Below, piece by piece: positions 18,014 through 34,735 of a stretch of DNA of 64,000 bases. The translations under genes and the position numbers were made by a program. The stretch covers positions 62,001 to 126,000 of the forward strand of contig JABCZH010000008.1 of NCBI GenBank assembly GCA_013289795.1. The letters are read 5' to 3'. Every line of letters starts with the position of its first letter. Position 1 is the first letter of the stretch. The notes beneath the pieces were generated by a model. The model made no database searches. It was not told where the DNA came from and saw only the letters and a list, made by a program, of their open reading frames with translations. Source of the DNA: Acidobacteriota bacterium (lineage in GTDB: Bacteria > Acidobacteriota > Terriglobia > Terriglobales > Acidobacteriaceae).

Positions 18014-18055
18014 GAGGGACCCGTCGGCGCTATGTTAGGCCGGGGAGGGCAGGAG

Positions 18056-18069
18056 GTCAACCGTCGCCC
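18056..18069. repeat. left target-site duplication (14 bp)
   Basis: GTCAACCGTCGCCC directly outside the left terminal inverted repeat. The identical 14 bases, in the same orientation, occur at 34648-34661 outside the right repeat. The next three bases (GGG) also match on both sides, because the inverted repeat itself begins with GGG. Confidence 0.92.
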
Positions 18070-18105
18070 GGGATGTTACGCATTGAGGGGATTTTGCTAC
18101 ACCCC
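18070..18105 (+). repeat. left terminal inverted repeat (36 bp)
   Basis: It begins GGGATGTTACGCATTGAGGG and ends TTTTGCTACACCCC. It is the exact reverse complement of 34612-34647. Inside the repeat the two ends diverge at once. Confidence 0.92.
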
Positions 18106-18272
18106 GGCGGAACGGGGGGGCAGGGAAAGTGGGACGGGCGACCCGACGGGGAAGAGGGCCGGGGGATGTCCGCTGTTCTCCGCTCTAGTTGTGTGCGATG
18201 ATTGTGGGCTGCTTGGACTAGGTATGGTCATGGGGACATGACACACGACTAGCAAATCTGGTCGCAAACTCC
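18106..18272. other. gene-free left end of the element
   Basis: GC-rich, G-run-containing sequence (AACGGGGGGGCAGGG, GACGGGGAAGAGGG) gives way to lower-GC DNA at about 18180. No reading frame, terminator or clear promoter is seen. It may hold integrase-binding sites next to the inverted repeat. Confidence 0.5.
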
Positions 18273-18845
18273 GTGTTACGCGTAGATCAAAGACGAATTG
18301 GATTGGTGTTGTTCATCGTTGGTCTTGTTCTTTCCGTGCTGTTGGTTGCTCATTTTAAAACTAGTCCTTCAACGGCACCCAACTTGCACCCCGCCATTGA
18401 CAAGGTAGGTCCATCATCGGTCTACCCTGATCCAATTCGGACACCGGGAGTTAATATTCCGAGCATTACACAGTCGAATATACAAGACACGATTTGCAAT
18501 CCCGATTGGAGCACCAAAAGCATTCGACCGTCTTCGTCATACACAACGAAACTAAAGCATGAACAGATGCAGGAACTGCACATTTCAGGAGATTCGAGTG
18601 ATTATGAAGAGGATCACCTGATCCCTCTTGAGTTGGGCGGCGATCCCAGGGACCCGAGAAATCTTTGGCCTGAGCCTTACAGTCCTCAGCCTGGAGCCAG
18701 AGAAAAAGACGTTGTTGAGAATTATCTTCACAAAGAAGTATGCGCGGGCAACATGACTCTCGAAGATGCTCAACATGAGATTTCAACCGACTGGTATCGC
18801 GTCTATTTAAGTATTCACCCAAGAGAAACGCAGGAACAACGCTGA
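18273..18845 (+). CDS. membrane-anchored HNH nuclease-like protein
   Basis: A 190-residue protein starting at GTG. N-terminal basic residues and a hydrophobic helix (about 9-28, IGLVLFIVGLVLSVLLVAHF) predict an N-in anchor, with the rest outside the cytoplasm. The C-terminal half carries EDHLIPLELGGDP (D114, H115) and NLWPEP (N130), then KDVVENYLHKEVCAG and MTLEDAQHEISTDW. This matches a common HNH-type family in which DHLIPLELGG provides the first His and NLWP the Asn. Two cysteines (C75, C157) could form a disulfide, fitting an extracytoplasmic place. It converges on the membrane operon at 18874-24072 with only 28 bases between stops. It may cut incoming DNA at the envelope; substrate and partner are inferred. 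Confidence 0.75.
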   Translation: MLRVDQRRIGLVLFIVGLVLSVLLVAHFKTSPSTAPNLHPAIDKVGPSSVYPDPIRTPGVNIPSITQSNIQDTICNPDWSTKSIRPSSSYTTKLKHEQMQELHISGDSSDYEEDHLIPLELGGDPRDPRNLWPEPYSPQPGAREKDVVENYLHKEVCAGNMTLEDAQHEISTDWYRVYLSIHPRETQEQR

Positions 18846-18873
18846 GTTTGCGTAGAGACAGGAACGTAACTGC

Positions 18874-19512
18874 CTATTTTGTGCCCGGTTCTGCTAGCTT
18901 CGTGCGCTTCGCGGAATATAGGTATTTCTCGAACCGTTCACGACCTCTGTAGTAGTCCTCGTATGTCGCATACGTAAAGCTGTAATCAAACTTGCACTCA
19001 CCTCCCTGAGGGCTACCATTCCGAAAGGCTGCTATCTGCAGTAAAACAGAATCAATGTCGGAAGGAGTTGTGATAGTAGCGCCAGCACGAAAGTCTACAT
19101 GTTGCGGGATGAGTCTGGCACGAAGAACTGCATTGTCCGCGAGCACCCTTACGGTAGTGGTTCCCTTAATTGAGCTGGCTGCCAACAACAGGTTGTCATC
19201 TTGACATTTGGGCTTCCCTCGTCCCCCACCCAACAACGCTTTCCTGAGCTCAGCATCAGAGCCAGGCACGATCTGGTCAAAACGTTTTTGCCAGAGTTCC
19301 AGGCGACTGCGGGTTTCTATGAGGTCGTGCTGAAGCTTTTCAACCTTGGCTGCTAGTTCCTGGTTCTCTTTCTTAAGCACCTCTATTCTAGTGGGTGGAG
19401 CAATAGGTATTTTTGGTCGTATGGAATACCAAAGCATGAAAACGAGCAGAAGGAACGTTTCCGCAAGAGTCATACTGATAACGAGTTCGCCTTTACTGCG
19501 CAAGGCATTCAT
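18874..19512 (-). CDS. MotB/ZorB-like membrane protein with divergent OmpA-like domain
   Basis: A 212-residue protein. One N-terminal helix (about 12-31, SMTLAETFLLLVFMLWYS) holds an acidic Glu18 where MotB/ExbD/TolR proteins have their proton-binding Asp. A coiled coil follows (about 42-80). The C-terminal region (about 120-205: VDFRAGATITTPSDIDSVLL, CKFDYSFTYATYEDYYRG, ERFEKYL) follows the strand-helix order of OmpA-like peptidoglycan-binding domains but lacks the canonical NxxLSxxRA motif. Last gene of a four-gene operon, 15 bases after the MotA-like gene, with AGAGGA before its ATG. I read it as the partner subunit of a stator-like complex; this is inferred from gene pairing, membrane topology and the residual fold pattern. 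Confidence 0.65.
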   Translation of the reverse strand: MNALRSKGELVISMTLAETFLLLVFMLWYSIRPKIPIAPPTRIEVLKKENQELAAKVEKLQHDLIETRSRLELWQKRFDQIVPGSDAELRKALLGGGRGKPKCQDDNLLLAASSIKGTTTVRVLADNAVLRARLIPQHVDFRAGATITTPSDIDSVLLQIAAFRNGSPQGGECKFDYSFTYATYEDYYRGRERFEKYLYSAKRTKLAEPGTK

Positions 19513-19527
19513 ATGTGCGATCCTCTC

Positions 19528-20901
19528 TTATCGTTTCGAAAAGAAACGACCCCATACCGGGCGTTCTAGGTCGGTTTGCAACGTGTTGAGATGATCGGAG
19601 ATGCTTGACACCGCACCTGCTACCGCCTGGTCTACGTGCTCCGTAAGGTCTCGCGTAGAGGATGCCTTGGCAATATCGGTATTCAGCGTTTGCAGTATTC
19701 CAGATGTTTGAGTACTGATTCTGTTGAGATGTTCCCGGACTGGGGACATCGCACTGTTAAGCACTGTGTCATCAACGACCAAAGGGACACGCGGAGTGAC
19801 GACGATACCATCTAGGCCTAACTTAATCTCTCGCTTAATGTCCTCAGAAAGGCCCGCGAGGTCGTGAGCCATCGTTTGCGTCGCTGCTGAGATAACGTCG
19901 CCTGTCTTATCAATGATGTTTTCAAATCGAGCTGCGTTCCCCGCGAGTTTGCTGCTGGCACCGTCCATATTGTCAATTACCCGGCGTGTAGCACTGGCGA
20001 ACCCATCTGTAGCTGTGTTGAACTGTTGAACAGCGTCGCTCACCTTCGTTGTGAGGTCTCCGATCGACTTTCCAAGACCGGTGTTTGTTCTCTTCAGCGT
20101 GGTAACTAAACCGCTCGTACCCTCTCGAATCTGATCTAAGTTCGTCGCAACCTGCTGACCAAAATCCCTTAACCCTTCGGCAATTCCATCGTGAATAGCA
20201 ACGTTGATTCCCTCCTTGGTTTCATCCACATGACGCTGTAGGCTTGCAACCGTCGTGCCCAGCATTGCCAGATAATTACTGGTCGCCGCCTCCATCGTTT
20301 TGGTGATCTCGCCACGAGCTTTTTCCATCGCTCCAATCAATTCACTATTCGCATTGCTGGCTGTCGTCAGAGTGGCATGCCAGTCTGTTAGCCCTTGGCG
20401 GGTAGCTTGAAGAGAAGCACTGAATTTTAGCAACAGGTCCTCTACAGATTCCTGTGCTCCCTGCGACTGTTCCGCTGCTGTGTACTTGAACTGGAGGATC
20501 ATTAAGCGGCAGAACATGCCGGTAGCAGTTGTCACTAGGGCATAGCCAAAGCTCCGGAAGATAGCATCCGCTGTATCAATTTGGTGAACGACGAAAGAGT
20601 CGATCAGTGCCCAAAGTGTCCAGATGAATCCCATAAAGTACATTGAATCTGCAAGTTGGGCGATGATAGACAATTTGTAGGATTCACTAGCCGTTGCAAA
20701 TAGCGCCGACCACCGGTTGAATACAAACACACCGTAGACAATCATGATTGCCGCAGGCACTATGACTCGTGCAGGAGTAATGCTGGCGTTTGACGAAATA
20801 ACAAATGCACCCAGCACTACGGCGATGAACCACGCCATGCCGAGTTGCCTCGTCTCTATGAAGGTGACCATACGGGGAATGGTTTTTGGGACTGTCGTCA
20901 T
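19528..20901 (-). CDS. MotA/TolQ/ExbB-like channel protein with long helical tail (ZorA-like)
   Basis: 457 residues from the ATG at 20901, which overlaps the stop of the VWA gene (ATGA). Four membrane helices lie in the first 140 residues. The last pair (SMYFMGFIWTLWALIDSF and FRSFGYALVTTATGMFCRL) match the conserved helices of MotA/TolQ/ExbB proton channels, including the ALxTTATG pattern. About 300 residues of helical, Thr/Ala/Asp-rich coiled coil follow, resembling chemoreceptor signalling rods. A proton channel plus long cytoplasmic tail is the layout of ZorA in Zorya defence. The family link rests on the helix pattern, not on a database match. Confidence 0.7.
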   Translation of the reverse strand: MTTVPKTIPRMVTFIETRQLGMAWFIAVVLGAFVISSNASITPARVIVPAAIMIVYGVFVFNRWSALFATASESYKLSIIAQLADSMYFMGFIWTLWALIDSFVVHQIDTADAIFRSFGYALVTTATGMFCRLMILQFKYTAAEQSQGAQESVEDLLLKFSASLQATRQGLTDWHATLTTASNANSELIGAMEKARGEITKTMEAATSNYLAMLGTTVASLQRHVDETKEGINVAIHDGIAEGLRDFGQQVATNLDQIREGTSGLVTTLKRTNTGLGKSIGDLTTKVSDAVQQFNTATDGFASATRRVIDNMDGASSKLAGNAARFENIIDKTGDVISAATQTMAHDLAGLSEDIKREIKLGLDGIVVTPRVPLVVDDTVLNSAMSPVREHLNRISTQTSGILQTLNTDIAKASSTRDLTEHVDQAVAGAVSSISDHLNTLQTDLERPVWGRFFSKR

Positions 20902-22283
20902 TGAGTCTCTCGATTCTGCTGAAGGCACATTTCAATTGTTGACTCGGTAAGGGTACCGAGATCAAGGCTACAAACATTCGTCGCGCCCGATTTTTTGAAA
21001 TATTGTTCCCATTCAGAAATGCGGCGGAAGAAGTCGCCCCCCTTCCCCGAATGGGGTGGTGTGTAGACGATTACTACCTGTTCTCGATTCATTGCCGGAT
21101 TGCTAGCAGGAGGTGGGTCAAAATTGAACTTGGACAGAAGTATTAGGAAGCGGGAAGGATCGAGCTTGTCGTCGTTCACCAATCGAAGGACTCCGTCAAT
21201 GTCTCCATCGCCTACTTCGGATTGTTGTTGGAGAGCAAGCCCCCATTCTTCGAGTTGCGTCTTAAATTTGTCAGCAGTATTAACCTCGTCCGATCTCTGA
21301 GCTAATCGAGGCACAAAGACCACGGGCGCAACCGATTTTGTGTGCCACGCCGGTCTGGTAGCGCCAAACCAAGTTGCCGTAACCGGAGCAGGCCAGTTGC
21401 CCGCAAGGTCGGCGACTGCTTTTGACACGATACCAATAGCCCGTTTTGTGAGCGGGCCGTCGTTGTCAGAAGCCCCCAGGTCGGTCACCAAAAGTACAGA
21501 CGTTCCTCTGCGGAGATTCTCGGATAGGCTGTTCTGCACCTCATAAATGGTGGTTCGGAAAATCGGCAATGCAACAACCGAACCTGCACCCGCTGCAAGC
21601 ATTCGGCGCTTCCAGTCACCGATACGAGTCAGGTACACGGCTGAGTCTGATGTTTCAGTCGTGCCGGGGCGATGCAACATCAAGATGTGCTCCCCGTGCA
21701 GCAAAACAGACGTTGGCAGACGGCCCTTGGGGAGGTCTTCGAGAAAATCGGAAAGAATCACTAGCGTCTTGCGACCGGGCAAAGCGGCCCAGTTCTGCGA
21801 TGCCAGCATCATAGCATCGCCAATGTCCGTATATGGTTCTGGACTACCTCGCACTCGGCTGGCGTTTATGACGGTTTCGACACACTTGTCGAGTGTGCCT
21901 CGTAGACCGTCGGCAGCATTCATAGCGCCAAGAACTTTCCGATTGTACTCAATAGTGTCACACAGGGGCGCTGCATTTGTGCTCTCTGCGCCGATCTTTC
22001 GCCACACTATTGTTGTTGGAGGATTCCATTCCTGTATTGCCAACTCTGCGAGTCCACGCGCTGTTTCTTTGAGTGCAACTCGGTCTGCTTGAGTGAGTGG
22101 AGCAAAACTTGCACTGAAGTCAACAATAACTGTGACAAAGCTCGGTTCACTGGCAGAATCAGCATTTGATTTTGATTCGCGTGAGGTGCTCGCCGCAGGG
22201 GCAGCTCGATTACAGCCGAGCGCACATGCCAAGAACGCTAATACGGTCGCGATCCTACGCACCCTAATGTGGATCGTTCGCAT
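20898..22283 (-). CDS. lipoprotein with VWA domain
   Basis: About 461 residues from the ATG at 22283; a GTG at 22262 directly after the upstream stop is also plausible and gives a tidy short signal. The signal peptide (RRIATVLAFLACALGC) ends in a lipobox-like ALGC, so the protein is probably lipid-anchored on the periplasmic side. A von Willebrand factor A domain follows with all three metal-site parts: DFSAS (DxSxS), the Thr of YTDIGDA and the Asp of VILSDFLED. A second segment (TSVLLVTDLGASDNDGPL, SRFLILLSKFNF, EQVVIVYTP) may be a second Rossmann-like unit. It overlaps both neighbours and so is translationally coupled within the operon. VWA domains bind proteins through Mg2+; here it may sense or grip an envelope target. 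Confidence 0.75.
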   Translation of the reverse strand: MRTIHIRVRRIATVLAFLACALGCNRAAPAASTSRESKSNADSASEPSFVTVIVDFSASFAPLTQADRVALKETARGLAELAIQEWNPPTTIVWRKIGAESTNAAPLCDTIEYNRKVLGAMNAADGLRGTLDKCVETVINASRVRGSPEPYTDIGDAMMLASQNWAALPGRKTLVILSDFLEDLPKGRLPTSVLLHGEHILMLHRPGTTETSDSAVYLTRIGDWKRRMLAAGAGSVVALPIFRTTIYEVQNSLSENLRRGTSVLLVTDLGASDNDGPLTKRAIGIVSKAVADLAGNWPAPVTATWFGATRPAWHTKSVAPVVFVPRLAQRSDEVNTADKFKTQLEEWGLALQQQSEVGDGDIDGVLRLVNDDKLDPSRFLILLSKFNFDPPPASNPAMNREQVVIVYTPPHSGKGGDFFRRISEWEQYFKKSGATNVCSLDLGTLTESTIEMCLQQNRETQ

Positions 22284-24072
22284 ACGTGGCAAGCGCCTTC
22301 GTAGTTTCGTCGCGATGTCCAGTGAGGATTAACAATGGACTGGCGAGAAGTTTCGTTACTTGATCCAACAGAACAGACACAACCATAAATGTTGACACGA
22401 AAACTCGATACCCACGTTCAAAGAGGCTCAGGAACAGATGACCCGCCCTCTGTACCCAAATATCCATCAGCGCAAGGAGCGGCATGAGTTGATAACAGGC
22501 TGCTGCGAGGACATAGCACGTAAGGAGGTTTCCGACCCAAAACACGATACCAACCGGATAAGCTGGTATTGCCAGTAACAACTCCGAAACAGTGAAAATG
22601 GAAAGGAGCACGAGACCGATCAATCGCCCCCAATTTGGTGCGGTCACTTTCTGCCAATCGGCCCCTTGAACGACAGTTTCACCCCCCGCGCTGAGAAAGC
22701 CTGCGGTGCCAACGACTGCAGCCTGCGCCAGGGCCAGAAAAACGGGATTCCCTATCCCGTGCCCCAGAAGGCTAAAACTCGAAGACCCGGTGAACACGAC
22801 CAACAAAGTGGCACCGATTGCTAGAGCAAACCACAAAAGCGCGTGACGGGACAGATTTATGACCTCCGGCAAGCCCAACGACTGTTCGCCAAGAGTAACC
22901 CACGACGGTTGCGCACTTGACAGCTTGCGAAGCTCTGACAGAAGTCGTTCCACCGCTTCGCTCGCGAAAGGTGCCGATGTAGAACCGGAGACTCCAGGTG
23001 GGGCAAGGGCTGTGCGAGCTGTCGCCGTCAGGGCCTCTGCACGCTGGAGTGCTGCCGTACATCGCACAGACGATCTCGTGATTGAACCAAGCTGCCTGTT
23101 GATCGTCGTCAGTGCAGTCCCTCGGAGCACCCTGGCTCCCATTCGATAGAGCGTCAAGCCCAGTGCAAACAATGTCATGACGAGCAGAAATCCCCAAATG
23201 AAGAAAACATCTGTTTGTGGTAGGGTGTAGCCGATTAGGGGTATCGTCACAGTCTCAACCCGCGTGGGCATTATCCGGGAGTAAAAAAACCCCTCCACAC
23301 AGGCTATTCCAACTGCTCCGATGCTCGTCAGTATTGCACCTACATGAATTTTGGAACCTTCTTCTTGCAGATCAGGGTCGGATAGAACTCCGTGAACAAA
23401 ACCCAATCCTCCCTCTACGCATGTAATTAACAATGCAAGAACAGAGAAGAGGGGAACGCCGAGAAACTTCAGGCTCGCTGAAAACCCCAAATCCCGAATG
23501 ATTTGGCTTAGCATGCCCGTATTGACGGTAATAATTGAAATGATAAGCAATATTGATATAGCGAGCGCCATTCGCGCCACGCGCAACGTTCCACCAGTCT
23601 GAGCGAGGTTTGCTTCTGCTGTTGGAAGATGGAAATCCTTTGGCACTGAGTTCGAGATTGCCTTAAGGCCTTCGTGAAGTTCGGGTAGCGCGTTCGTGAA
23701 TTCTTCAACTCGACCGGACACGTTCGAGAGTTGTGACTGGATATCGTGCACCGATTGCAGCAATGTGGCGTTTGTTCGACTCCAGAGGCGGCTGCTGCTG
23801 GAATCTAAATGGCGCAATAGTTGGTCCTGTGCGAAACGAGCAATCAAGGCCCGTTGAGCCTCTGAGCGTTCGGCTGCGTTCTTACGATGTCGCTCTCGGA
23901 GAAGATTAAGGTATTGTGACAGCTCGGCCCGGAGTCGTTGGGTGATCGGGAGGAAAAGATAATAGGCTGGAATTGCCACAATGGCCAAAACAACTGCTGT
24001 CGCGAATGCCCAGGCGAGAAATGTCTTGAGCCAGGGCACCTGCGTGAGTATGGTGTGTGCAAGGTCGCTCAT
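22264..24072 (-). CDS. polytopic membrane protein of unknown function
   Basis: About 602 residues; ATG at 24072 with AAGGAG upstream (a GTG four codons earlier is possible). One N-terminal helix (TFLAWAFATAVVLAIVAIPAYYLFL) leads to a cytoplasmic coiled coil (about 45-140: HDIQSQLSNVSGRVEEFTNA). At least seven more helices follow in two blocks, separated by a polar region of about 80 residues (TALTTINRQLGSITRSS to LRKLSSAQPSW). I recognise no known domain. It is the first gene of the four-gene operon with the VWA lipoprotein and the MotA/MotB-like pair, so it may form the membrane base of the complex. No catalytic motif is visible. Confidence 0.7.
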   Translation of the reverse strand: MSDLAHTILTQVPWLKTFLAWAFATAVVLAIVAIPAYYLFLPITQRLRAELSQYLNLLRERHRKNAAERSEAQRALIARFAQDQLLRHLDSSSSRLWSRTNATLLQSVHDIQSQLSNVSGRVEEFTNALPELHEGLKAISNSVPKDFHLPTAEANLAQTGGTLRVARMALAISILLIISIITVNTGMLSQIIRDLGFSASLKFLGVPLFSVLALLITCVEGGLGFVHGVLSDPDLQEEGSKIHVGAILTSIGAVGIACVEGFFYSRIMPTRVETVTIPLIGYTLPQTDVFFIWGFLLVMTLFALGLTLYRMGARVLRGTALTTINRQLGSITRSSVRCTAALQRAEALTATARTALAPPGVSGSTSAPFASEAVERLLSELRKLSSAQPSWVTLGEQSLGLPEVINLSRHALLWFALAIGATLLVVFTGSSSFSLLGHGIGNPVFLALAQAAVVGTAGFLSAGGETVVQGADWQKVTAPNWGRLIGLVLLSIFTVSELLLAIPAYPVGIVFWVGNLLTCYVLAAACYQLMPLLALMDIWVQRAGHLFLSLFERGYRVFVSTFMVVSVLLDQVTKLLASPLLILTGHRDETTKALATYANDPH

Positions 24073-24317
24073 CGGAAGCAGCACTCCTTCCCTAAGTATC
24101 CCCTTGGAAAAACAATGGCACTGCTAGTAAATCGCAACAATTTGAGGTTTGAATGTGCGGGAGACCCCTGGAAATGGCCTTTCGGAAACTTGCCATTTCG
24201 GTCACCTCAGCCTTCAACGCATCCTGCCAGGTCCGGGGGAAGGCTTGGTCACGAAGGATAGCACCAGTTTTGCCCCCCCACAACTGAATTCGCCCCAGAG
24301 CCAACCGAGAGGCAAAG
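24073..24317. other. gene-free region between the membrane operon and cas1
   Basis: 245 bases without a convincing gene. It must contain the promoter of the membrane operon (minus strand) and the end of the cas1 transcript. It holds several G/C runs (CCGGGGGAAGG, TTTTGCCCCCCC), but no strong promoter or terminator hairpin stands out. Confidence 0.5.
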
Positions 24318-25856
24318 TCAGGATTTGTTACTTAGCACAGGTTCGACACCCGCCAGTTTAGCGAGAGCCTGCCAATGCCTTGGATGCGGAACTCGCCGAC
24401 CTTCCTGAATTGCCGAAGAATATGGTTCGCTCACCCCAAGCACCAAACGTATTTGAGATTTTGGCACTTCAGCAAGTGCTCGTTGAATCGCTTTCACGTA
24501 GACATCACGGGTGAGCCACGCAGGAAGGTCCGAAGTTTTCCACTCTCTAATCTTGTTCCTGTGTCGCAACATCGTGCCAGCCCGTTTTGCAAGAAATTCC
24601 GGACGTTGCGCATCTTTCCGTCCGGCATCGAAGTTCTCAAGGGCTACAGTGCGTGAACACTTCGCACAATACGTGTTGTCCCGTTGAATCTCTTTCCCGC
24701 AACTCCGGCAGAGACGACGCGGCTTTGGCGTTTCAACTTTCGGAAACGATGGCTGCCCTTTCGCTTCCCGTCGATGTTGCTGTGTCAACGGTGTCGAAAC
24801 TCGGGTGCCGGTTCCCGATTGGCGTGTGCTGTTCCAAAGCGCACGCGCGACATGTTCAGCCCACGGCGCAATCAGCTTTGCCCAGGTTGGAGCGGTATCA
24901 CTCAGCTTGGAGCAGAGTTGCGATCTCAATCTACAATTCCCGGTTTCAGTCTCAAAGAAATCAGCGCGCCGTAGGGGTTCTTGGCTTATCCAATTAAGCA
25001 ACCAATCCTCGATTTGCGGACGCACAGGTTCGAGAACATCCAGGGCGAGGGAATCCCGGTTTGGAGTGTCCGTATGTAAACCTAAACCGAGACCCGGATC
25101 AAGTCCCATAGCGGTCAATGCCAGTCTGCTCTCCGATTCGAGCAAAGCGAAACAATAATTGAGAATTGCGTGGACGGGTGTTACCGCTAAACGGGGTCCG
25201 CCAGACAACGGTGAGTGCCTGCTTCCAACCGTAAGCCAATGATTCGGGATTTGGCGCAAATCCGCCTTGGGCCAAAGCACTGGAGTCTTAGACCACGCAC
25301 CAAAATATGCGACTGCCGCGTGAGCTTCGAGTGTACGGATCGTTTGAAGGGTATCGGCGACAGCCAGTCTGTCTCGAAAAGTTGCGATTATCCCGGCTGT
25401 GGCGGGATCATTCAAACGCTCTTGTGTCACTCGTTGCTGCCCTGCGATCTTGGCGTCAATCAAGGCGCGAGAGATATCGAGCCCAATACCATTGTTGAGC
25501 GCAAGGGATTGGGCACGGCGCAACCGCGCATCACTAGATGCAGTCGGCCCAGTCACGAACAAGACTCTTCCAGTCGGAGTCAGCATTACGAACGAAGCGC
25601 CAACGTCGGCTAGCCATTTTAATGCCCCGAAGGTTGCGAACCCGTCGGCGGAGGTGCAGACCAAACGTTTCAGCCGATGACCGACACGGGCAAGCCTGAT
25701 CTTGCGCCGCTCCGGGCCCACACCATCCTCGATTTCGAGGTGACCGGATTGCATCCTCACACGCAGACCAAAACCGTGGATTGTAAGCACGCCACTCTTG
25801 CTGATTGGAGATTTGCCGGAATGAGTCGATTGCGGTAGGTTGTGCGAAGCTGCCAT
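24318..25856 (-). CDS. cas1: Cas1-family integrase (casposase-like) with C-terminal zinc ribbon and HTH
   Basis: A 512-residue protein. Residues about 20-110 form the beta-rich N-domain (GVLTIHGFGLRVRM, FGALKWLADVGASFVML). The catalytic helical domain carries Glu177 (RTLEAHAAVAYFGAW), His261 (GLGLGLHTD) and Asp273/Glu276 (SLALDVLEPVRP), the full Cas1 metal-binding set; VHAILNYCFALLESE and MGLDPGLG are further Cas1 landmarks. A zinc ribbon follows (C383, C386, C397, C400), then a helix-turn-helix at about 455-505 (SQIRLVLGVSEPYSSAI). No Cas2 gene or CRISPR array is present. Established knowledge: Cas1 of casposons often has an extra C-terminal HTH and integrates the element. The extra DNA-binding modules and the element ends at 18070 and 34647 argue for this role rather than spacer acquisition. 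Confidence 0.92.
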   Translation of the reverse strand: MAASHNLPQSTHSGKSPISKSGVLTIHGFGLRVRMQSGHLEIEDGVGPERRKIRLARVGHRLKRLVCTSADGFATFGALKWLADVGASFVMLTPTGRVLFVTGPTASSDARLRRAQSLALNNGIGLDISRALIDAKIAGQQRVTQERLNDPATAGIIATFRDRLAVADTLQTIRTLEAHAAVAYFGAWSKTPVLWPKADLRQIPNHWLTVGSRHSPLSGGPRLAVTPVHAILNYCFALLESESRLALTAMGLDPGLGLGLHTDTPNRDSLALDVLEPVRPQIEDWLLNWISQEPLRRADFFETETGNCRLRSQLCSKLSDTAPTWAKLIAPWAEHVARALWNSTRQSGTGTRVSTPLTQQHRREAKGQPSFPKVETPKPRRLCRSCGKEIQRDNTYCAKCSRTVALENFDAGRKDAQRPEFLAKRAGTMLRHRNKIREWKTSDLPAWLTRDVYVKAIQRALAEVPKSQIRLVLGVSEPYSSAIQEGRRVPHPRHWQALAKLAGVEPVLSNKS

Positions 25857-25954
25857 TGGAGTGCCTTTCCGATGGTAGACAGGGCTTGTCGCCTGTTAGT
25901 AGCAGTCGGCAGGCCCGTTTAAACCATTACTCATTATAAATCAGTGACATAGAG

Positions 25955-26911: not shown

Positions 26912-26997
26912 TTGGCGAAGGATAACAGTCTGGGGACGCGAAAAGAAATTTCACGTCCCTGACCATCTGGATTCTTGGGCTTAGTCTTGCCTCTGTT

Positions 26998-27507: not shown

Positions 27508-27926
27508 AAGATCAGCAGCCAATCCGAACTGCCCGGCGCAAAGCTGTCAGGCAGGATCGACTTGGTGTCAACGCGTTTTGTCTTTTCTGCGGTTATGCCT
27601 GCCTGGAATCGCTCACGCAAGTATCACGCCATTGGCTCGCAGCGAGAGGGATTACCAATGATCGCTTAAATCGCTTAACTGAGGACCATCACAATTTCGG
27701 GGAAGCGCATGACCCAGATGCAATCGTAACTTTGTGCCTCAATTGTCATCGGGAAATTACCGAAGGATTGGCAGGTGAAGGGGTCAGTATGCACCCCGAA
27801 ACAAATCTACTGAAGCTCATCGTTCTCATACTCAAAGCTTCGGCTGTCCTTTTTGAATCGCTCGCAAAGTCGTATCGCAAGTGGGCAAATCTGTTGGAAC
27901 GCCACGTGGAGGTTAATCATGAGTAA
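27504..27926 (+). CDS. HNH endonuclease with Cys4 zinc site
   Basis: A 140-residue HNH-type nuclease. C26/C29 (FCLFCG) and C78/C81 (LCLNCHRE) would hold a structural zinc. Between them, EDHHNFG (D61, H62, H63) supplies the general-base His, and H82 of CHRE the last metal ligand. The C-terminal 50 residues are helical. Starts at GTG, overlapping the HTH gene, and overlaps the PolB start by eight bases, so the three are translationally coupled. HNH nucleases accompany Cas1 and PolB in several casposons (established), though their role in transposition is unclear. Confidence 0.85.
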   Translation: MKDQQPIRTARRKAVRQDRLGVNAFCLFCGYACLESLTQVSRHWLAARGITNDRLNRLTEDHHNFGEAHDPDAIVTLCLNCHREITEGLAGEGVSMHPETNLLKLIVLILKASAVLFESLAKSYRKWANLLERHVEVNHE

Positions 27927-30885
27927 AAAACAAAGGAAGACTGCACCGATTCCCGACATCTACGTTCGAGCACACACTGTCGTACAAAGCAACGGAAAGC
28001 GCGGAAAGAAGAAGGACGAAAACAAGAAGAACGACCACCCTGCGGATAAGGCCCCAAAGTGGCCGGATCATGCGCTGATCTTCGATGGTGAATCTAGGAT
28101 TACCGCCGATCAAACCCTGACATTCGGGTTCTGGCGCTTCTGCCAATTGCGGGATGGTGTATACGTGCCTCTGGAAGAAGGAATCTTCCACGATCACGAT
28201 CTTCCCGTGGAGGAACTGAACGTGCTTCGCAAATACGCGAGAGCCGCAAAGCCCGAGACCGCTGTCGACGGTTGCGACCGCTTGCGCCTTTACTCCCGCG
28301 CAAAGTTCATTGCGGAAGTTTTCGGGATGGCGATTCAGGCCAAGGCACTCATCGTCTGTTTCAATGCCGGGTTCGACCTAAGCAGGCTTGCTGTGGATTG
28401 GGAGACCGCAAAGAACGGCGGGTGGTCGTTGATCCTGTCTCAGTGGCGCAACCCGAAAACGGCTGAGCTGGGGGCGAATAAGTTTTTTCCGCGTATTGTC
28501 GTCAAGGCACTCAACAGCAAAACGGCAATCATCAATTCCACTCGCGCACCTATGTCTGAGCCGAAGAAGAAAGGTCAGCATGTTAAGCTTTGGCCAGCCG
28601 CTAGATTCCTGGACGTGCGCACTCTGCTCTGGGCACTTCGCAACAAATCCTATTCGCTAAAAACAGGATGTAAGAAGTTTGAAGTTCCTGGAAAGCTAGA
28701 CCATAAGCCAACCGGGCGTGTGGATTTGGAAGAGGTGGAGTATTGCAGACAGGATGTTCGATCTACGGTTGGTCTGCTGAATGCTGTGAAGCAGGAGTAC
28801 GACCTGCATCCAATCGCTCCCGGTCCTGACAAAATGTTCAGCCCGGCCAGCGTGGCGAAGGGCTATCTCGAAGAGCTGCACATTTTGCATCCGAGCGAGA
28901 AAGTTAGAGATGCAGATGCCGCATACGGCATTTTCATGCAAAGTTACTTCGGCGGGCGGGCGGAGTGCCGCATTCGCAATTGGGAACTACCAACCTGTCC
29001 GGTGGATTTCATGTCTCAGTACCCCACCGTGAACGAACTCTTAGGCAATTGGGCTGTGCTTACGGCTGAGAATGTCACCTTCCCCGAGGCGACAGCAGAA
29101 GTGCGGCGGCTGCTCTCGCAGATTACTCTTAGCCGCTGCTTTGACCGCGAACTGTGGCCCGAATTCAAGTTCTTTGCCCTGGTTCGCCCGGATAACGACA
29201 TTCTTCCCGTGCGGACCATCTACAACGGCACGACTCAGAACATCGGAATCAACTTCCTTAGTAGCAAAGAGCCAATCTGGTTCGCAGGGCCAGACATCAT
29301 TGCATCCATTCTCCTAACCGGAAAGGTCCCTCACATCGAAAAGGCCATCCGGGTAGTTCCGCAAGGCAAACAGGCTGGGTTAACGTCAACATCCCTGCGC
29401 GGCATGGTTTTGGTGGATGCCAACAAGAATAGTTTCTTTAAGCACGTCATCGAACAGCGAGCGGCAAACGAATCAAATCCAGAACTCCATTATTGGTTGA
29501 AGATTCTCGCCAACAGCGGGTCCTATGGTCTATTCGTAGAACTCAATCCGAACGAAGCCGATGACGCAGAACTGAAGGTCTTTGCAGGTGGAGAGTCTTT
29601 TGAGACTACTTCCGACGTGGTAGAAGAACCCGGAAAGTGGTTCGCACCTCACATCGCTTCACTCATCACATCCGGTGGCCGCCTACTTCTGGGAATGCTC
29701 GAAAAGTGCATAGCTGATGCCGGCGGAGCATTCCTGTTTTGTGACACCGACAGCGCCGCCATCGTGTCGTCGCAGCGTGGCGGGCATGTTGCCATGCCGG
29801 ATGGCGCGAAGCCTATCAAGGCGCTTTCCTGGGCTGAGGTGCAAAGCATCGTTGACAGATTTGAGCTTCTCAACCCTTACGACCGCAAGGTCGTTCCTGG
29901 CTCGATTCTCAAGATTCATAAACTGAATTGGGGGCCTAACAAACAGCGCCGTCAACTCTTCGGCTACAGCATAGCTGCGAAGAGGTATGCGCTTTATACG
30001 AAATCCCACAACGACATTGAGATCGTGGAACCCAAAGCGCATGGTCTTGGCTATTTTTATGCGCCCAAGGATTCCCGTGAAGGATGGGACCACGAAATCC
30101 CGCAGTGGATATTCGAGGCTTGGGACTGGATCATTCGCGGGGTCCTCGGATTGAAGCGCACGAAGCCTTCATGGTTTGATCTTCCAGTCATGATGCGGTT
30201 GGCCGTCAGCACCCCACATCACGCATTGCAATACCTTGCCAAGGGGCCACTCACGCGCCCGAACAATTTCATGATGCTTCCACAAATAGACCGCTTTGGA
30301 TGTCCACAAAACGTTGACCCGGACAAGTTCACCCTGATAACTCCTTTTTCTGACGTACGAGAAGATTGGATGAAGTCGAAATGTATCAACATCCACGATT
30401 GCGCTTCGCCCATTTACGAACTCACTGGCGAATATGACGGCACGAGAGCGGTCGCAAAGAGTTTCTTCATGCTCATGGACTCGTACCAGAATCATCCAGA
30501 GGCCAAAAGCCTCGGGCCTGACGGGAACCCGTGCGAATTCGATACGCGGGGTTTGTTGCAGCGAGCGCATATCATCGCGAACTGGCCGCCAGTCTACATC
30601 GGGAAAGAATCGGATAAACATTGGGAAGAAGGGGAAGATTTGAGCCTGTTGGAATTCAGAGCAATCCAGTACCGGCGAAAAGGGAACGCTGTCGCGAATG
30701 ACGAGCAATTGGCACGGATTGCCAAGGTTCCGAAGAGGGAATTCATGCGTCGTGGGATCAATCAGCACACTCTAGAAAAGATTTGTAAGCCGGAATTCGT
30801 CAGGGCAAGCAAGCTGGCGAAGTGTTTGAAGGTGCTCGTAGAATATGAGGCATACATAAACCAGTTGCGAAAGTCTCCTGATTGA
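27919..30885 (+). CDS. polB: family B DNA polymerase of a casposon
   Basis: 988 residues from the ATG at 27919 (GGAGG eight bases upstream). The proofreading exonuclease has ExoI D56/E58 (LIFDGES), ExoII D153 (CFNAGFDLSRLA) and ExoIII D279 (EYCRQDVRS). The polymerase has motif A VDFMSQYPTV (D363), motif B KILANSGSYG (K528, Y536) and motif C CDTDS (D609, D611), so all key residues are present. A C-terminal extension (VPKREFMRRGINQHTLEKI) looks like an HTH. Bacterial chromosomes rarely carry PolB apart from Pol II; here it is far from Pol II in sequence style and sits next to cas1 and HNH, as in casposons, where it is thought to copy the element. Whether it is protein-primed or uses another primer cannot be told. 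Confidence 0.93.
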   Translation: MSKKQRKTAPIPDIYVRAHTVVQSNGKRGKKKDENKKNDHPADKAPKWPDHALIFDGESRITADQTLTFGFWRFCQLRDGVYVPLEEGIFHDHDLPVEELNVLRKYARAAKPETAVDGCDRLRLYSRAKFIAEVFGMAIQAKALIVCFNAGFDLSRLAVDWETAKNGGWSLILSQWRNPKTAELGANKFFPRIVVKALNSKTAIINSTRAPMSEPKKKGQHVKLWPAARFLDVRTLLWALRNKSYSLKTGCKKFEVPGKLDHKPTGRVDLEEVEYCRQDVRSTVGLLNAVKQEYDLHPIAPGPDKMFSPASVAKGYLEELHILHPSEKVRDADAAYGIFMQSYFGGRAECRIRNWELPTCPVDFMSQYPTVNELLGNWAVLTAENVTFPEATAEVRRLLSQITLSRCFDRELWPEFKFFALVRPDNDILPVRTIYNGTTQNIGINFLSSKEPIWFAGPDIIASILLTGKVPHIEKAIRVVPQGKQAGLTSTSLRGMVLVDANKNSFFKHVIEQRAANESNPELHYWLKILANSGSYGLFVELNPNEADDAELKVFAGGESFETTSDVVEEPGKWFAPHIASLITSGGRLLLGMLEKCIADAGGAFLFCDTDSAAIVSSQRGGHVAMPDGAKPIKALSWAEVQSIVDRFELLNPYDRKVVPGSILKIHKLNWGPNKQRRQLFGYSIAAKRYALYTKSHNDIEIVEPKAHGLGYFYAPKDSREGWDHEIPQWIFEAWDWIIRGVLGLKRTKPSWFDLPVMMRLAVSTPHHALQYLAKGPLTRPNNFMMLPQIDRFGCPQNVDPDKFTLITPFSDVREDWMKSKCINIHDCASPIYELTGEYDGTRAVAKSFFMLMDSYQNHPEAKSLGPDGNPCEFDTRGLLQRAHIIANWPPVYIGKESDKHWEEGEDLSLLEFRAIQYRRKGNAVANDEQLARIAKVPKREFMRRGINQHTLEKICKPEFVRASKLAKCLKVLVEYEAYINQLRKSPD

Positions 30886-31084
30886 ACTACAGTCTTCACT
30901 CGTATACTTCCCCGGAACAATCCCCCAAGGATTTAGGAGCATCAAACGGCTGAAACGTTGACGCTCGTATGTGTCTTTGGTGTTTACGTGTTTCGGCACG
31001 TCAAGCCGCGGGTCTGTAGGCTACATCAAGAATCGGAACGAGGACACCGCCCCAATTAAGACAGCGGAACAATGAGTTTTTTAA

Positions 31085-32503
31085 ATGGCACAACAACTAA
31101 GCACATACCTTGGAGTCAAGTCCAACGATCTAGAGAATGCCGGTGTCCTGGATACTGTCATCGGAGTAGACACCCATCTTTTTGTTGACCCTCTTTTGCT
31201 CAATAGTGCGAAGACCCCCGAGTTCAAGGCCTCCCGGCAGAAGGTTGAGAAGCATTATGAAGAAATACTCTTGCTGCTTTCCAAGTCTGAGAAACGTGAC
31301 GATCGCGCGTGGCGAGGTGCCCAAGAGCGGCTTGTATTTCGTGAGCTACCGGGTACTGCCATCGGTTATTCCGCCAAGTCTGATGACGGGAGAGGTATTG
31401 GTCCTGTACTCGGCAACCGCTTGCTAGAATCTGCGTGGGAGATTATTAAACTCGGAATCTCTGATCCCGTGATTTTCGAGTTATTGGGTCTGTTTGAAGA
31501 GGACTTCGGGGCTGATCGCTTGAGCGACATGACCATACGTATCATCCGTCATGACCTGTACGAATACACCGACAGGACGAGCAGAGAGCTAGACCTCAAG
31601 GATCTTGCACATTTGAAGACTTCTGAAAAGACTTACCTTGTGCCGCATCATCCCAGCAGGACAAAACCTCTCATCTTCCTGCCAACGGAACTTTTGAGAG
31701 ACCTACCTGTTGCGCAATCATGGGATGGAATCGACGCAGTCGCCGCCCATAACCAAGCGCTACGGCAACGAATCAATCAGATGGTGGCTGGCATCTGGGG
31801 CAAACGGCGAAGGATTCCGAAACCCGAGCTCCGGAAGGCCATCTTCGAAAATCCCGACGCCCTCAAGGAACTGATTCGCGTCTACAAGGAGAGTCGACCG
31901 AAGCCGTACGATTTCGCAACGGACCCCGCAGGTGAGGTGAAGTGGTACTTCTTTGGGAAAGAGTCAGCCAATAGGTTTCCTCTTCCTCTAACATTTCAGC
32001 CCAAGCAAGGCTTGTCGGGCGTAGAGGGCGTTGTTGAAAGCATCATTGCCCAATTCAAGCGCAATATCGAGGACAACGGACTAAGGGAACACCTTTTTAG
32101 GGATGGCTCGCCGCTCCATGAACGTTATAGCCAGCGCCTGTTCTTTGCTACTGCCGATACCTATTGTGCAGCCAGTAATCTCGATCTGAGCCGCGAGCCG
32201 AACGGCGGAAACGGCCCGGTAGATTTCAAAATCAGCAGTGGCTACGACGCGCGGGTTCTGGTGGAAATCAAGTTGTCATCGAATCCACATCTTGTTCAAG
32301 GCTTTGAGCATCAACTGCCAGCTTACGAGAAAAGCGAAAATACGACATCTACTTTCTACGTGGTAATCCGCGTGACTGAATCAGAAAAACAAATCAAACA
32401 AGTTCGGGAGATTTACAACAAGGCGCAGGCCGACGGTAAAAAAGTGCCGAAGCTGGTTGTTATTGACGCGATGGAAAAGCCATCAGCCAGCAAACGGAGG
32501 TAG
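31085..32503 (+). CDS. PD-(D/E)XK nuclease-like protein
   Basis: A 472-residue protein with two parts. The N-terminal region (QQLSTYLGVKSNDLENAG, VDTHLFVDPLLL, GYSAKSDDGRGIG, FGADRLSDMTIRII) resembles proteins of unknown function often found near defence genes. The C-terminal domain has a PD-(D/E)XK pattern: D380 (PVDFK), then E394-I-K396 (VLVEIKLSSN), followed by a helix with QLPAYEKSE, the usual QxxxY-like element. It probably cuts DNA. It follows PolB after a 199-base gap and its stop codon is next to a truncated GloVer fragment, so it marks the last intact cargo gene before host-like sequence. Confidence 0.75.
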   Translation: MAQQLSTYLGVKSNDLENAGVLDTVIGVDTHLFVDPLLLNSAKTPEFKASRQKVEKHYEEILLLLSKSEKRDDRAWRGAQERLVFRELPGTAIGYSAKSDDGRGIGPVLGNRLLESAWEIIKLGISDPVIFELLGLFEEDFGADRLSDMTIRIIRHDLYEYTDRTSRELDLKDLAHLKTSEKTYLVPHHPSRTKPLIFLPTELLRDLPVAQSWDGIDAVAAHNQALRQRINQMVAGIWGKRRRIPKPELRKAIFENPDALKELIRVYKESRPKPYDFATDPAGEVKWYFFGKESANRFPLPLTFQPKQGLSGVEGVVESIIAQFKRNIEDNGLREHLFRDGSPLHERYSQRLFFATADTYCAASNLDLSREPNGGNGPVDFKISSGYDARVLVEIKLSSNPHLVQGFEHQLPAYEKSENTTSTFYVVIRVTESEKQIKQVREIYNKAQADGKKVPKLVVIDAMEKPSASKRR

Positions 32504-32504
32504 T

Positions 32505-32637
32505 GGACGTTCGCGCCGTTGGCCCCATCGAAATTCACCAGAGTGTTGAACGCGTCTGTGCAGGCGCGGCAATCGCCCATTGCGGCACAGAACACAAACA
32601 CGGCCCAGCCCTTTTCCTACTCGCTCGGTTTTGTCAT
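32505..32637 (-). pseudogene. truncated GloVer-repeat gene remnant
   Basis: On the minus strand, ATG at 32637 begins MTKPSE, an in-frame TAG follows, and then EKGWAVFVFCAAMGDC and FNTLVNFDGANGAN. This matches the start of the neighbouring GloVer proteins (MTKLRG, LCAATA and FTTLHSFNGADG). The similarity stops at about 32508, next to the stop codon of the nuclease gene, so the rest of the gene is missing. It has no promoter of its own and lies 26 bases after the intact GloVer gene. Confidence 0.65.
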
Positions 32638-32663
32638 CGGGCAATCCCCGTTGCAGTCTATAG

Positions 32664-34151
32664 CTACTTAATCACGTGGAATGGCACGTTGCTGGTGAGC
32701 GTGCCGCTGGGCGTGGTCACGGTGACGAACCCGGTGGTCGCTCCTGCGGGCACTGTGGCCTCCACCAACGTGGCAGATTTAACACTGAATGTTGCCGCAG
32801 TTCCGTTCAATGACACGCTTGTTGTTCCAAAGAATCCTTGCCCGAGGATTCCGAACACTTGTCCAGCCTTCGCGGGGTTCCGCACCAAGCTCACGAACGG
32901 ACCAAGGCCGGTCGTGAGACGAAAGACTGTTCCATCGCCGTTGGCACCTCCAAGGGTGGTGGCGCCGTAAAAATCTCCATCGGTACCTTGGACTAGTCCG
33001 GCGGGAATCTCGCCATCCGTGCAACCGTTCTTAAAACAAAAGGTGTAGAGTGTGGCAAACCGGCCCCTGGTGATTGTGAAAATCGTCCCTCCCCAACGGC
33101 CTCGCGATGTTATCCCATAGAGGTTTCCATCAGAGGCCTCGATCAGTCCAACTGGCCCCGAGTCGGAGTTGTTGAAGGCATACATCGTCGTCAGTGTGCC
33201 GCCTGGGGTGATTTTGAAGACCGTCCCGCAGCCAGAACCATTGACGCCACATTTGGCGACGCCGCCGTAGAAAGTTGTTCCGTAGAAGTTCCCGTCGGTT
33301 GCCTGGATCAGCCCGATCGGGCTCCTGCCGTCAGTGCAAGAGGTTTGCGAGCAAAAGCTGTAAAGTGTCGTCAACGCGCCTTGCGACGTGATCTTGAAGA
33401 CCGTGCCTTGGTTGTTGGCTCCGCCCGCCACAGTCGTCCCGTAGAAACTGCCGTCGGTTGCCTGGATCAGCCCGCTAGGGCCGCTGCCGTCAGTGCAGAC
33501 GGTTTGCGGGCAAAAGCTGTAGAGTGTCGTCAAAGCGCCACTTGGGCTGATCTTGAACACCGTGCCACAGCCAAAGCCATCCCCGGTATTGCATGCGTTG
33601 TGATTCCCGCCGAAGAACGTCGCCCCGTAGAAGTTCCCACCGACGGCTTGGATCAGCGACGCTTGTGGGTATAGCCCGTCGGGACAACTGCCTTGCAAGC
33701 AGAAGTCGTAGAGCGTCGTTAACATGCCGCTCGGGCTGAGTCTGAAGACGGTGCCGCAGCCAAGGGTGCCAAAATTGTCGCAAGTGTTTGCCCCGCCGTA
33801 GGCAGTCGTCCCGTAGAAGTTCCCATCGGTTGCCTGGATGAGCTCAGCCTCGGGGCCGTTGCCGTCCAAGCAGGCGTCCTGCGAGCAAAAGTTGTATAGC
33901 GTCGTTAGGACGCCAGTTGGGGTGATCTCGAAGACGGTGCCACAGCCAACACCGTTACACATGTTTGCTCCGCCAAGATTTGTTATGCCGTAGAAATTCC
34001 CATCAGCGGCCTGCACCACCCCAGAGGGGTACTGTCCGTCCGCGCCGTTAAAGCTGTGCAATGTTGTGAAAGTTTGGCCATGTACTACGATCGCTGTAGC
34101 AGCACAGAGCGCGACCACGGTGCTCAACTTCCACCCTCTAAGTTTCGTCAT
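32664..34151 (-). CDS. exported GloVer-repeat protein with C-terminal IPT-like domain
   Basis: 495 residues from the ATG at 34151 (GGAGGT upstream). A signal peptide (WKLSTVVALCAATAIVVHGQ) precedes repeats of about 45-55 residues built on DGNFYG-TT-GGA-GTVFKI and LTTLYSFC. These are the Gloeobacter/Verrucomicrobium (GloVer, TIGR03803) repeats, which form a propeller-like surface protein. The C-terminal VRNPAKAGQVFGILGQGFFG to VTVTTPSGTLTSNVPF is an IPT/TIG-like Ig domain. Function is unknown; cell-surface adhesion or binding is likely. It is a paralogue of the gene at 34880-36310, with which it shares promoter and leader, but this copy lies inside the mobile element. Confidence 0.88.
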   Translation of the reverse strand: MTKLRGWKLSTVVALCAATAIVVHGQTFTTLHSFNGADGQYPSGVVQAADGNFYGITNLGGANMCNGVGCGTVFEITPTGVLTTLYNFCSQDACLDGNGPEAELIQATDGNFYGTTAYGGANTCDNFGTLGCGTVFRLSPSGMLTTLYDFCLQGSCPDGLYPQASLIQAVGGNFYGATFFGGNHNACNTGDGFGCGTVFKISPSGALTTLYSFCPQTVCTDGSGPSGLIQATDGSFYGTTVAGGANNQGTVFKITSQGALTTLYSFCSQTSCTDGRSPIGLIQATDGNFYGTTFYGGVAKCGVNGSGCGTVFKITPGGTLTTMYAFNNSDSGPVGLIEASDGNLYGITSRGRWGGTIFTITRGRFATLYTFCFKNGCTDGEIPAGLVQGTDGDFYGATTLGGANGDGTVFRLTTGLGPFVSLVRNPAKAGQVFGILGQGFFGTTSVSLNGTAATFSVKSATLVEATVPAGATTGFVTVTTPSGTLTSNVPFHVIK

Positions 34152-34260
34152 TGGTGACCTCCGTGGCGCAACGTCGGATCGTGGCCTACTCACGCTAGAG
34201 AACATGCCCGGCTGCGAACCGCAAGGGGGAGTACGCTGCGGAAATGCCGAGCAGTGAAGG

Positions 34261-34289
34261 ATTATCTTCCCCAGCCTGGTTGGGGTCAA
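34261..34289 (-). promoter_or_regulatory. promoter of the internal GloVer gene
   Basis: On the minus strand, TTGACC (34289-34284) and GATAAT (34266-34261) are spaced by 17 bases. The same promoter, with the same spacing and surrounding bases, precedes the paralogue at 34880. Confidence 0.75.
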
Positions 34290-34300
34290 GCTGTACCCTA

Positions 34301-34588
34301 TTAATTTAATCTTTCATTGTGGGGCGTGAGTCTTTGAACTTTTTCGCGCAACTTTTTTGAAAATTCGCTGACCTTGAAATCGACCGGAATCGGAATAAAA
34401 AGACCTGCATCTACCGTGTTATCAGCAACGTCCAACCATACTGTTGTTGAGGTTAAATAAAAACATCCACCATACGCCAATGACCCAGCCTGCTCTGCGA
34501 ACTCCGCGCGCGTTTTTTCTAAAAATCTCGCCGTGCCCACACGCAACAAAGTGTAGGCGTCGCACCCTATGGCCGAACACTCCAACAA
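34301..34588 (-). CDS. doubtful hypothetical protein
   Basis: A 95-codon frame from a TTG. The second half (GSLAYGGCFYLTSTTVWLDV, FIPIPVDFKVSEFSKKLREK) reads like real protein, but the start is poor, with no ATG and no ribosome site. It sits between the internal GloVer promoter and the right inverted repeat, in relatively AT-rich DNA. It could be a small cargo gene or a decayed fragment. Confidence 0.35.
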   Translation of the reverse strand: MLECSAIGCDAYTLLRVGTARFLEKTRAEFAEQAGSLAYGGCFYLTSTTVWLDVADNTVDAGLFIPIPVDFKVSEFSKKLREKVQRLTPHNERLN

Positions 34589-34611
34589 TCAAAAGTGAGC
34601 TGATCGCCAGG

Positions 34612-34647
34612 GGGGTGTAGCAAAATCCCCTCAATGCGTAACATCCC
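34612..34647 (-). repeat. right terminal inverted repeat (36 bp)
   Basis: Exact reverse complement of 18070-18105; on the plus strand it starts GGGGTGTAGCAAAATCCCC and ends GCGTAACATCCC. It marks the right end of the element. Confidence 0.92.
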
Positions 34648-34661
34648 GTCAACCGTCGCCC
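34648..34661. repeat. right target-site duplication (14 bp)
   Basis: GTCAACCGTCGCCC, identical to and in the same orientation as 18056-18069. Host sequence resumes with GGGAGGAGGGAAGG. Confidence 0.92.
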
Positions 34662-34735
34662 GGGAGGAGGGAAGGAGAGACTCTTAGAGCGCCCCCCTCT
34701 GGTAATGGCTGATGAAAGATTAAATAAGGTGCAGC

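Follow-up and report, generated by a model that had tools for sequence, protein, structure and literature searches.

Introduction

Casposons are regarded as the origin of the adaptation enzymes of clustered regularly interspaced short palindromic repeats (CRISPR) systems, and experimental knowledge of them comes from a few archaeal elements whose insertions lie in tRNA genes. The target site duplication (TSD) of casposons has a median length of 15 nt (PMC4046053). The known casposases make duplications of 14–15 bp and require a sequence next to the duplication. In A. boonei this sequence is located ~9–15 bp from the duplication, and in M. mazei it is confined to the first 30 bp, bases 12–17 being essential (PMC6614799, PMC6977970); the helix-turn-helix (HTH) domain was suggested by the authors as the reader of this adjacent sequence (PMC6977970). 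Casposons of families 3 and 4 were reported as intergenic (PMC6614799). Here, we describe a casposon found in a 64,000-nucleotide stretch of an Acidobacteriota bacterium (positions 62,001 to 126,000 of contig JABCZH010000008.1, assembly GCA_013289795.1; hereafter the window), which is inserted exactly at the predicted promoter of a host kinase gene, and the related elements of other acidobacterial genomes.

Casposons as such, the bacterial ones included, are already known, and the new part of this study is the promoter target. No report of promoter targeting by casposons or of acidobacterial casposons was found in the literature searched, outside of which lay subscription papers (Krupovic 2016), and the word “promoter” was absent from the available text of PMC6614799 and PMC6977970. 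The best explanation of the findings is a casposon lineage that inserts at sigma70-type promoters, to which we assign a probability of about 0.85.

Results

The window element has perfect ends and is located at a predicted kinase promoter

The whole element spans 16,578 bp (18070–34647, strand unassigned) and is bounded by terminal inverted repeats (TIRs) of 36 bp, GGGATGTTACGCATTGAGGGGATTTTGCTACACCCC on the left (18070–18105, plus strand) and its exact reverse complement on the right (34612–34647, minus strand), which pair at 36/36 bp. These ends are flanked by two identical and direct copies of the 14-bp TSD GTCAACCGTCGCCC (strand unassigned), the promoter-proximal copy at 18056–18069, whose GTCAA end is TTGAC on the minus strand, and the promoter-distal copy at 34648–34661. 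The initial annotation, which was made from the sequence alone, had claimed these inverted and direct repeats, and both the coordinates and the perfect identity were confirmed; its “16.6 kb of cargo” is the size of the whole element and not of the cargo. Among the eight exact inverted pairs printed for the 19-kb stretch around the element, the next-longest was 14 bp and none of the remaining pairs had direct repeats at its flanks; thus, the TIR and TSD arrangement is not a chance product. When the left end was searched against the own genome, as the annotation had proposed for the 36-bp repeat, the two ends of the element were the only matches, and no further copy was found there. Related genomes having the same repeats with no Cas1 element between them were also looked for and not found. 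The TIRs, the TSD, a solitary Cas1 and a family B DNA polymerase (PolB) all support the reading of a casposon in an acidobacterium. It is near certain that the element is a casposon, and it is complete with its core genes open. The promoter target, the probable end of another casposon at 34662–34697, and the frequency of the lineage, all described below, had escaped the initial annotation.

The gene next to the insertion is a host gene outside the element encoding a Ser/Thr kinase with TPR repeats (15617–18013, minus strand; Pfam Pkinase 6.5e-52). Its predicted promoter comprises the −35 hexamer TTGACC (18055–18060, minus strand), in which the insertion border falls after the fifth base, and the −10 hexamer TAACAT (18032–18037, minus strand) at a 17-bp spacer, so that the minus strand reads as the duplication GGGCGACGGTTGAC followed by C, N17, and TAACAT. 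The kinase start is located 43 bp beyond the duplication, and the site does not overlap with the 3′ end of a tRNA gene. When the kinase orthologues of other genera were located through the neighbouring PIG-L gene, TTGACC-N17-TAACAT was kept in all eight of them, while the surrounding upstream DNA differed. In seven of these eight, there was no casposon-like end within 120 bp (at most 20/35 matching bases; shuffle maximum, 21). The eighth orthologue (L080) has a casposon-like end at the same border (28/35), and the kinase promoter has therefore probably been hit twice independently. At this second site (L080:5890–5940, genome G442), the casposon-like end is solitary and host-looking genes lie beyond it.

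Related elements are inserted at predicted promoters across the lineage

The Cas1 of the window element has seven named relatives, which are from acidobacterial metagenome-assembled genomes. At E ≤ 1e-40, 25 of the 399 genomes sampled from the class have it, and at E ≤ 1e-60 it occurs in 45 of the 398 sampled from the host family; a second family has it in 8 of 89 genomes, and the samples overlap with one another. The casposon lineage is common in Acidobacteriota. Related elements were delimited in 57 stretches, some representing the same contig twice, using no motif and requiring an exact 14-bp direct repeat that encloses inverted ends with at least 20 of 36 bases matching. This search yielded 29 element intervals at 27 loci in 23 genomes, with sizes from 5.1 to 17.2 kb and one composite of 24.7 kb. 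The homologues of window genes were found in 28 (Cas1), 23 (PolB), 17 (HTH), and 5 (HNH) of the 29 intervals, some of them being fragmentary or broken. A scan of 33 loci with the first three TIRs had missed most elements because the TIRs diverge, and it was replaced by this motif-free search.

The TSD ended in exactly TTGAC, the −35 box, in 24 of 29 intervals and in 19 of the 24 distinct TSDs, and the end matched TTGAC at 4 or 5 of its 5 bases in 26 of 29; in the stored orientation, TTGAC was found at this offset only. When the intervals were oriented by the TSD end alone, the host-side DNA contained TANNNT at a spacer of 17 or 18 (16–18 being allowed) beyond the TTGAC end in 21 of 25 intervals, and no comparable peak was seen in the opposite flank. 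Left out of the 25 were L079, L111 and the distal element of L127+061+128, which have a casposon end on the promoter side, and the L090+073 composite. On the level of flank clusters, TANNNT was present in 13 of 17 (7 at spacer 17 and 6 at spacer 18), for which shuffling gave a mean of 0.63 and a maximum of 5/17. The flank clusters are not fully independent, and so the count by target gene was used, in which TANNNT occurred at 10 of 14 genes (binomial 1.6e-7 and 3e-5). The background was taken from TTGAC sites in the same stretches with the target sites themselves left out, and TANNNT occurred at 42 of 384 intergenic sites, at 18 of 94 sites within 150 bp upstream of a same-strand open reading frame (ORF), and at 19 of 1283 sites inside ORFs.

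A gene or tRNA directly follows the promoter in nearly all intervals. The targets include tRNA-Gln at six intervals and tRNA-Ala at one, with the tRNA starting 84–86 bp on, a class I aminoacyl-tRNA synthetase read as valyl-tRNA synthetase at six (by Pfam on L060 only and by N-terminal likeness on the others), a threonyl-tRNA synthetase type at one, and ribosomal protein L21 at two, and translation genes as a whole are the targets of 16 of 25 intervals. The elements occur in both orientations relative to the promoter. These results together strongly supported, as judged from sequence, that the lineage targets predicted promoters of the sigma70 type.

Sister elements have moved and form rows beside the promoter

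Mobility was demonstrated by genome comparison for sister elements only. When the flanks of L122 at a tRNA-Gln promoter were joined, 5 of 16 hand-picked congeners (L171, L172, L175, L176, and L177) aligned in one piece across the join with 66–69% identity and thus have empty sites; two of these five also aligned across the joined flanks of L077, and no congener aligned with those of L131. Furthermore, genomes G131 and G175 have flanks that are 97.1% and 99.2% identical (1.5 kb each) and the same 14-mer, and they contain different casposons of 9.9 and 16.1 kb with only 1.1 kb in common. The locus L166 of genome G095 was tried as an empty site for L077 and was rejected, as it has two TSD copies with 143 bp of a casposon-like remnant between them. 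This remnant at a tRNA-Gln promoter (L166:1345–1515) looks like a deleted or miniature casposon, and G095 gave no Cas1 match in the class-wide search.

A casposon-like end beyond the promoter-distal duplication was present in 15 of 29 intervals, that of the window included, at a threshold of at least 22/35 with the own locus left out (maximum of 1,740 shuffles, 21). In the window, a probable second and older casposon terminus abuts the distal duplication at 34662–34697 (strand unassigned), matching the L111 end at 26/35 with a null maximum of 21, and this probable end would account for the GGGA that follows both copies of the 14-mer. No convincing partner of this end was found when the window was scanned for one. 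Three copies of the 14-mer occur in L111, L127+061+128, and L090+073. In both L127+061+128 and L090+073, Cas1 and PolB are full-length in the element nearer to the promoter, and the farther one retains only fragments; these two cases are consistent with growth of the row next to the promoter. In L104, the distal neighbour retains long Cas1 and PolB matches.

Outside the chromosomal loci, a plasmid collection gave 19 records with a Cas1 match, none covering >80% of the query; 15 are annotated as CRISPR Cas1 or cas1 and the remaining four are without annotation or otherwise unnamed. PolB had no match in this collection. The viral contigs gave one locus with a Cas1 match (L163), a contig of 9.5 kb that is listed as viral in IMG/VR; it encodes a partial Cas1 of the casposon family and is probably not a virus but a piece of a casposon.

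Cas1 and PolB are of the casposon type

The initial annotation had described a Cas1 with HTH, a family B polymerase, and HNH and HTH genes inside the element. The Cas1 (24318–25856, minus strand; 512 aa) matched Pfam Cas_Cas1 at 4e-32 and carries a C-terminal zinc ribbon with four cysteines (383, 386, 397, and 400) invariant in an alignment of 23 Cas1 proteins, followed by an HTH that is seen as helices in the predicted model and gave a weak match to Pfam HTH_31 (0.019). The residues E177, H261, D273, and E276 are invariant across the 23 proteins, and E177, H261, and E276 align with E162, H232, and E247 of the M. mazei casposase (6OPM), which were reported as catalytic (PMC6977970). The profile of the 23 relatives placed 6OPM first among solved proteins (7.6e-34) and the A. 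fulgidus Cas1 next (1.3e-30), and 6OPM was also top-ranked by Foldseek with the predicted Cas1 model. The window Cas1 is predicted, from its conserved residues and fold, to catalyse the transposition.

The annotation had proposed a Cas1 tree and had named a position among CRISPR adaptation Cas1 beside an array as evidence against a casposon. The own genome has one Cas1 and gave no Cas2 match, and no CRISPR array was evident from the gene content of the element, no dedicated array finder having been run. In the tree, the window Cas1 and 22 Cas1 proteins of the same kind form one clade (support 100/99), and 18 of these 22 come from delimited elements. For comparison, 23 non-casposon loci were matched, of which 12 were dropped for a length of <180 aa; the label “crispr” in the tree means found with the Cas1 Pfam model, the arrays of those loci being unchecked, and the M. 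mazei casposase is the sole known casposase reference. The “crispr”-labelled L149 and 6OPM join the casposon clade at a support of 89/76 only, where long branches meet.

The PolB (27922–30885, plus strand) has the motifs of the exonuclease and of the polymerase and carries, at its C terminus, an HTH that resembles the one on Cas1. It gave no Pfam match and no PDB sequence match. It matched PHROG 1907 “DNA polymerase” (2e-10), its exonuclease and polymerase motif residues (e.g., D55, E57, D278, D362, K527, D608, and D610) were kept in 21 rows, and the Foldseek matches of its model were family B polymerases, that of phi29 among them, at low global scores; these results bear out the polymerase of the annotation. 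The HTH at the C terminus of PolB is related to that of Cas1 (profile comparison probability 96.5), and the Cas1 HTH compared with the whole PolB profile was placed at residues 924–972 (probability 90.5). Such a pair of C-terminal HTHs is a trait reported for family 2 casposons (PMC4046053). The element is presumably replicated by this PolB.

Divergently from Cas1, PolB is encoded in an HTH-HNH-PolB operon. The annotated HNH endonuclease of this operon (27504–27926, plus strand) gave weak matches (Pfam 0.012, which is below the cut-off; PHROG HNH 1e-3). The first gene encodes a putative HTH protein (26998–27507, plus strand) with homologues in 17 of the 29 related intervals; as it had no library match, its HTH label was given by eye. 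The protein adjoining Cas1 (25955–26911, minus strand) belongs to an unknown family and has relatives in just two loci, L017 and L019. Among the Pfam, PHROG, and PADLOC matches of the main element genes, there was no integrase or transposase besides Cas1, and genes without any match remain.

Explanations of the promoter target

The element and its duplication, the exact −35 position, the −10 distance, the promoter conserved in orthologues, and the stacking are observed in the DNA, and the following mechanism is proposed for them. Cas1 would join the element ends to the target at points 14 bp apart, with one cut inside the −35 hexamer after TTGAC and a second cut 14 bp upstream of the first. 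Gap filling would duplicate the 14 bp, and the gene-side copy would restore the −35; the promoter would thus stay whole and offer a safe landing site. Because the site would be rebuilt after insertion, further casposons could enter the same place and form a stacked row on the upstream side of the promoter, with 14-bp repeats between its members. The Cas1 complex, perhaps through the zinc ribbon and HTH, may read promoter DNA in place of the archaeal tRNA-gene “leader”. In the lineage, the −10 hexamer is located 19–25 bp from the duplication border, so the promoter could serve as such a leader. The complete proposal, that this Cas1 lineage uses the promoter as a leader by reading its −35 and −10, rebuilding it, and building polarised rows upstream of housekeeping genes, is a tentative one that we hold to be somewhat short of an even chance.

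Several observations weigh against promoter insertion by a casposon lineage. The searched stretches were picked for holding this Cas1, and four intervals were left out after inspection; when these are included, 22 of 29 have the −10. TANNNT is missing in 4 of the 25 intervals (L076, L114, L120, and L121), of which L076 is an insertion inside an outer-membrane-protein ORF, and no TTGAC end can be recognised in L120 and L121; L067 has TTGCG. The flank clusters are partly dependent, one synthetase promoter accounting for three of the 17. No two-sided empty site of the window insertion was found, the upstream DNA of the kinase orthologues being unlike the window distal flank. Lastly, phmmer with the single sequence puts the A. 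fulgidus CRISPR Cas1 (4n06) slightly above 6OPM.

The main alternative, which we consider unlikely, is that the transcription machinery, as a sigma factor or RNA polymerase at the promoter, guides the casposase rather than the DNA sequence alone. The Ty elements, which are guided by Pol III factors, provide a parallel. It would agree with unrelated target genes that share only the promoter pair, with a 17/18 spacer variation like that of natural promoters, and with the share of tRNA and translation genes among the targets (16 of 25 intervals), whereas the known casposases need nothing but DNA to locate their site in vitro, through the TSD-adjacent sequence (PMC6614799, PMC6977970). Still less probable is a casposase that prefers only a short TTGAC border motif, in which case promoters would be seen since harmful insertions elsewhere are lost. 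TTGAC at the TSD border is indeed the strongest conserved target feature, and the presence of both spacers 17 and 18 is expected for a bystander −10; against this, TANNNT at the right distance was far rarer at the intergenic and gene-upstream background sites than at the target genes, the ORF-based background being crude. A reading of the locus as a Cas1 of CRISPR adaptation, or as a domesticated Cas1 island between chance repeats, agrees with Pfam and PADLOC labelling the gene only as Cas1. We regard it as highly improbable in view of the perfect TIR and TSD, the adjacent PolB, and the single Cas1 with no Cas2 match in the genome. The same architecture recurs with different TSDs in other genomes, and these delimited sister elements already refute it. 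Promoter insertion by a casposon lineage was retained as the best explanation.

Cargo genes and neighbouring features

The left part of the element contains genes for a possible HNH-type protein with a very weak match (18273–18845, plus strand; PHROG 589, 0.079), a small coiled-coil protein with weak coiled-coil matches (18874–19512, minus strand), a MotA/TolQ/ExbB-like protein with a ZorA-like coiled coil (19528–20928, minus strand; PADLOC ZorA 3.5e-10, Pfam MotA_ExbB just below cut-off), a possible and very weakly matched von Willebrand A-type protein (20898–22292, minus strand; Pfam 0.02), and a large membrane protein (22264–24084, minus strand). The last three are arranged in one operon (19528–24084), which is perhaps a Zorya-like defence system, and this set had no BLAST counterpart in the other delimited elements.

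The right part encodes a candidate defence protein (31085–32503, plus strand), which matched PHROG 30194 of unknown function over its full length (2.6e-111) and the PADLOC candidate defence family PDC-M36A (3e-8), and is possibly a casposon-borne phage defence gene. It also encodes a GloVer tandem-repeat protein (32664–34289, minus strand; NCBIfam TIGR03803 8e-97). This GloVer-type gene lies just inside the element and another just outside it (34880–36310), and such genes were also seen near or in other casposons (L018, L079). A selenocysteine tRNA gene was located at 4348–4445 of the window (ARAGORN, Rfam).

Discussion

The lineage described here is bacterial and has a defined and testable target, a promoter surviving the insertion, and its rows resemble leader-repeat arrays. 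It offers mesophilic Cas1 transposases for experiments and a rule for finding further elements, and it may become a tool for inserting large cargo beside a promoter without breaking it. If the promoter does act as a leader, the casposon rows would provide a living model for the way in which a leader-repeat array could have come about before CRISPR.

Family 3 casposons (AceAut-C1, NitAL212-C1; PMC4046053), compared by description, are like the window element in their bacterial host and share with it the PolB, HNH, and HTH gene set and the TIR. The Cas1 of AceAut-C1 has a C-terminal zinc-binding domain and an HTH, as in the window Cas1. Unlike the window lineage, no promoter target is reported for this family in the available text of PMC4046053 and PMC6614799. 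Family 2 (M. mazei, A. boonei) shares the C-terminal HTH on Cas1 with a similar HTH on PolB, the Cas1-PolB-HNH-HTH core, the 14-bp TSD, and the need for TSD-adjacent sequence. Family 2 elements target mostly the 3′ ends of tRNA genes, whereas the window lineage is found on the 5′ side, at the promoter −35; in addition, the window host is bacterial and its PolB is very divergent.

The CRISPR arrays with Cas1-Cas2 are likewise built by leader-adjacent insertion with repeat duplication and repeated use of the site, the inserts being lined up between repeats. The casposon rows differ from them in consisting of whole transposons with 14-bp repeats and no Cas2, and the promoter directs transcription away from the inserted row. 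Tn7, with its glmS target, also uses a single safe site beside an essential gene and forms stacked elements (PMC4046053); it does so with different enzymes and lands downstream of the gene, whereas the window lineage lands upstream, at the promoter.

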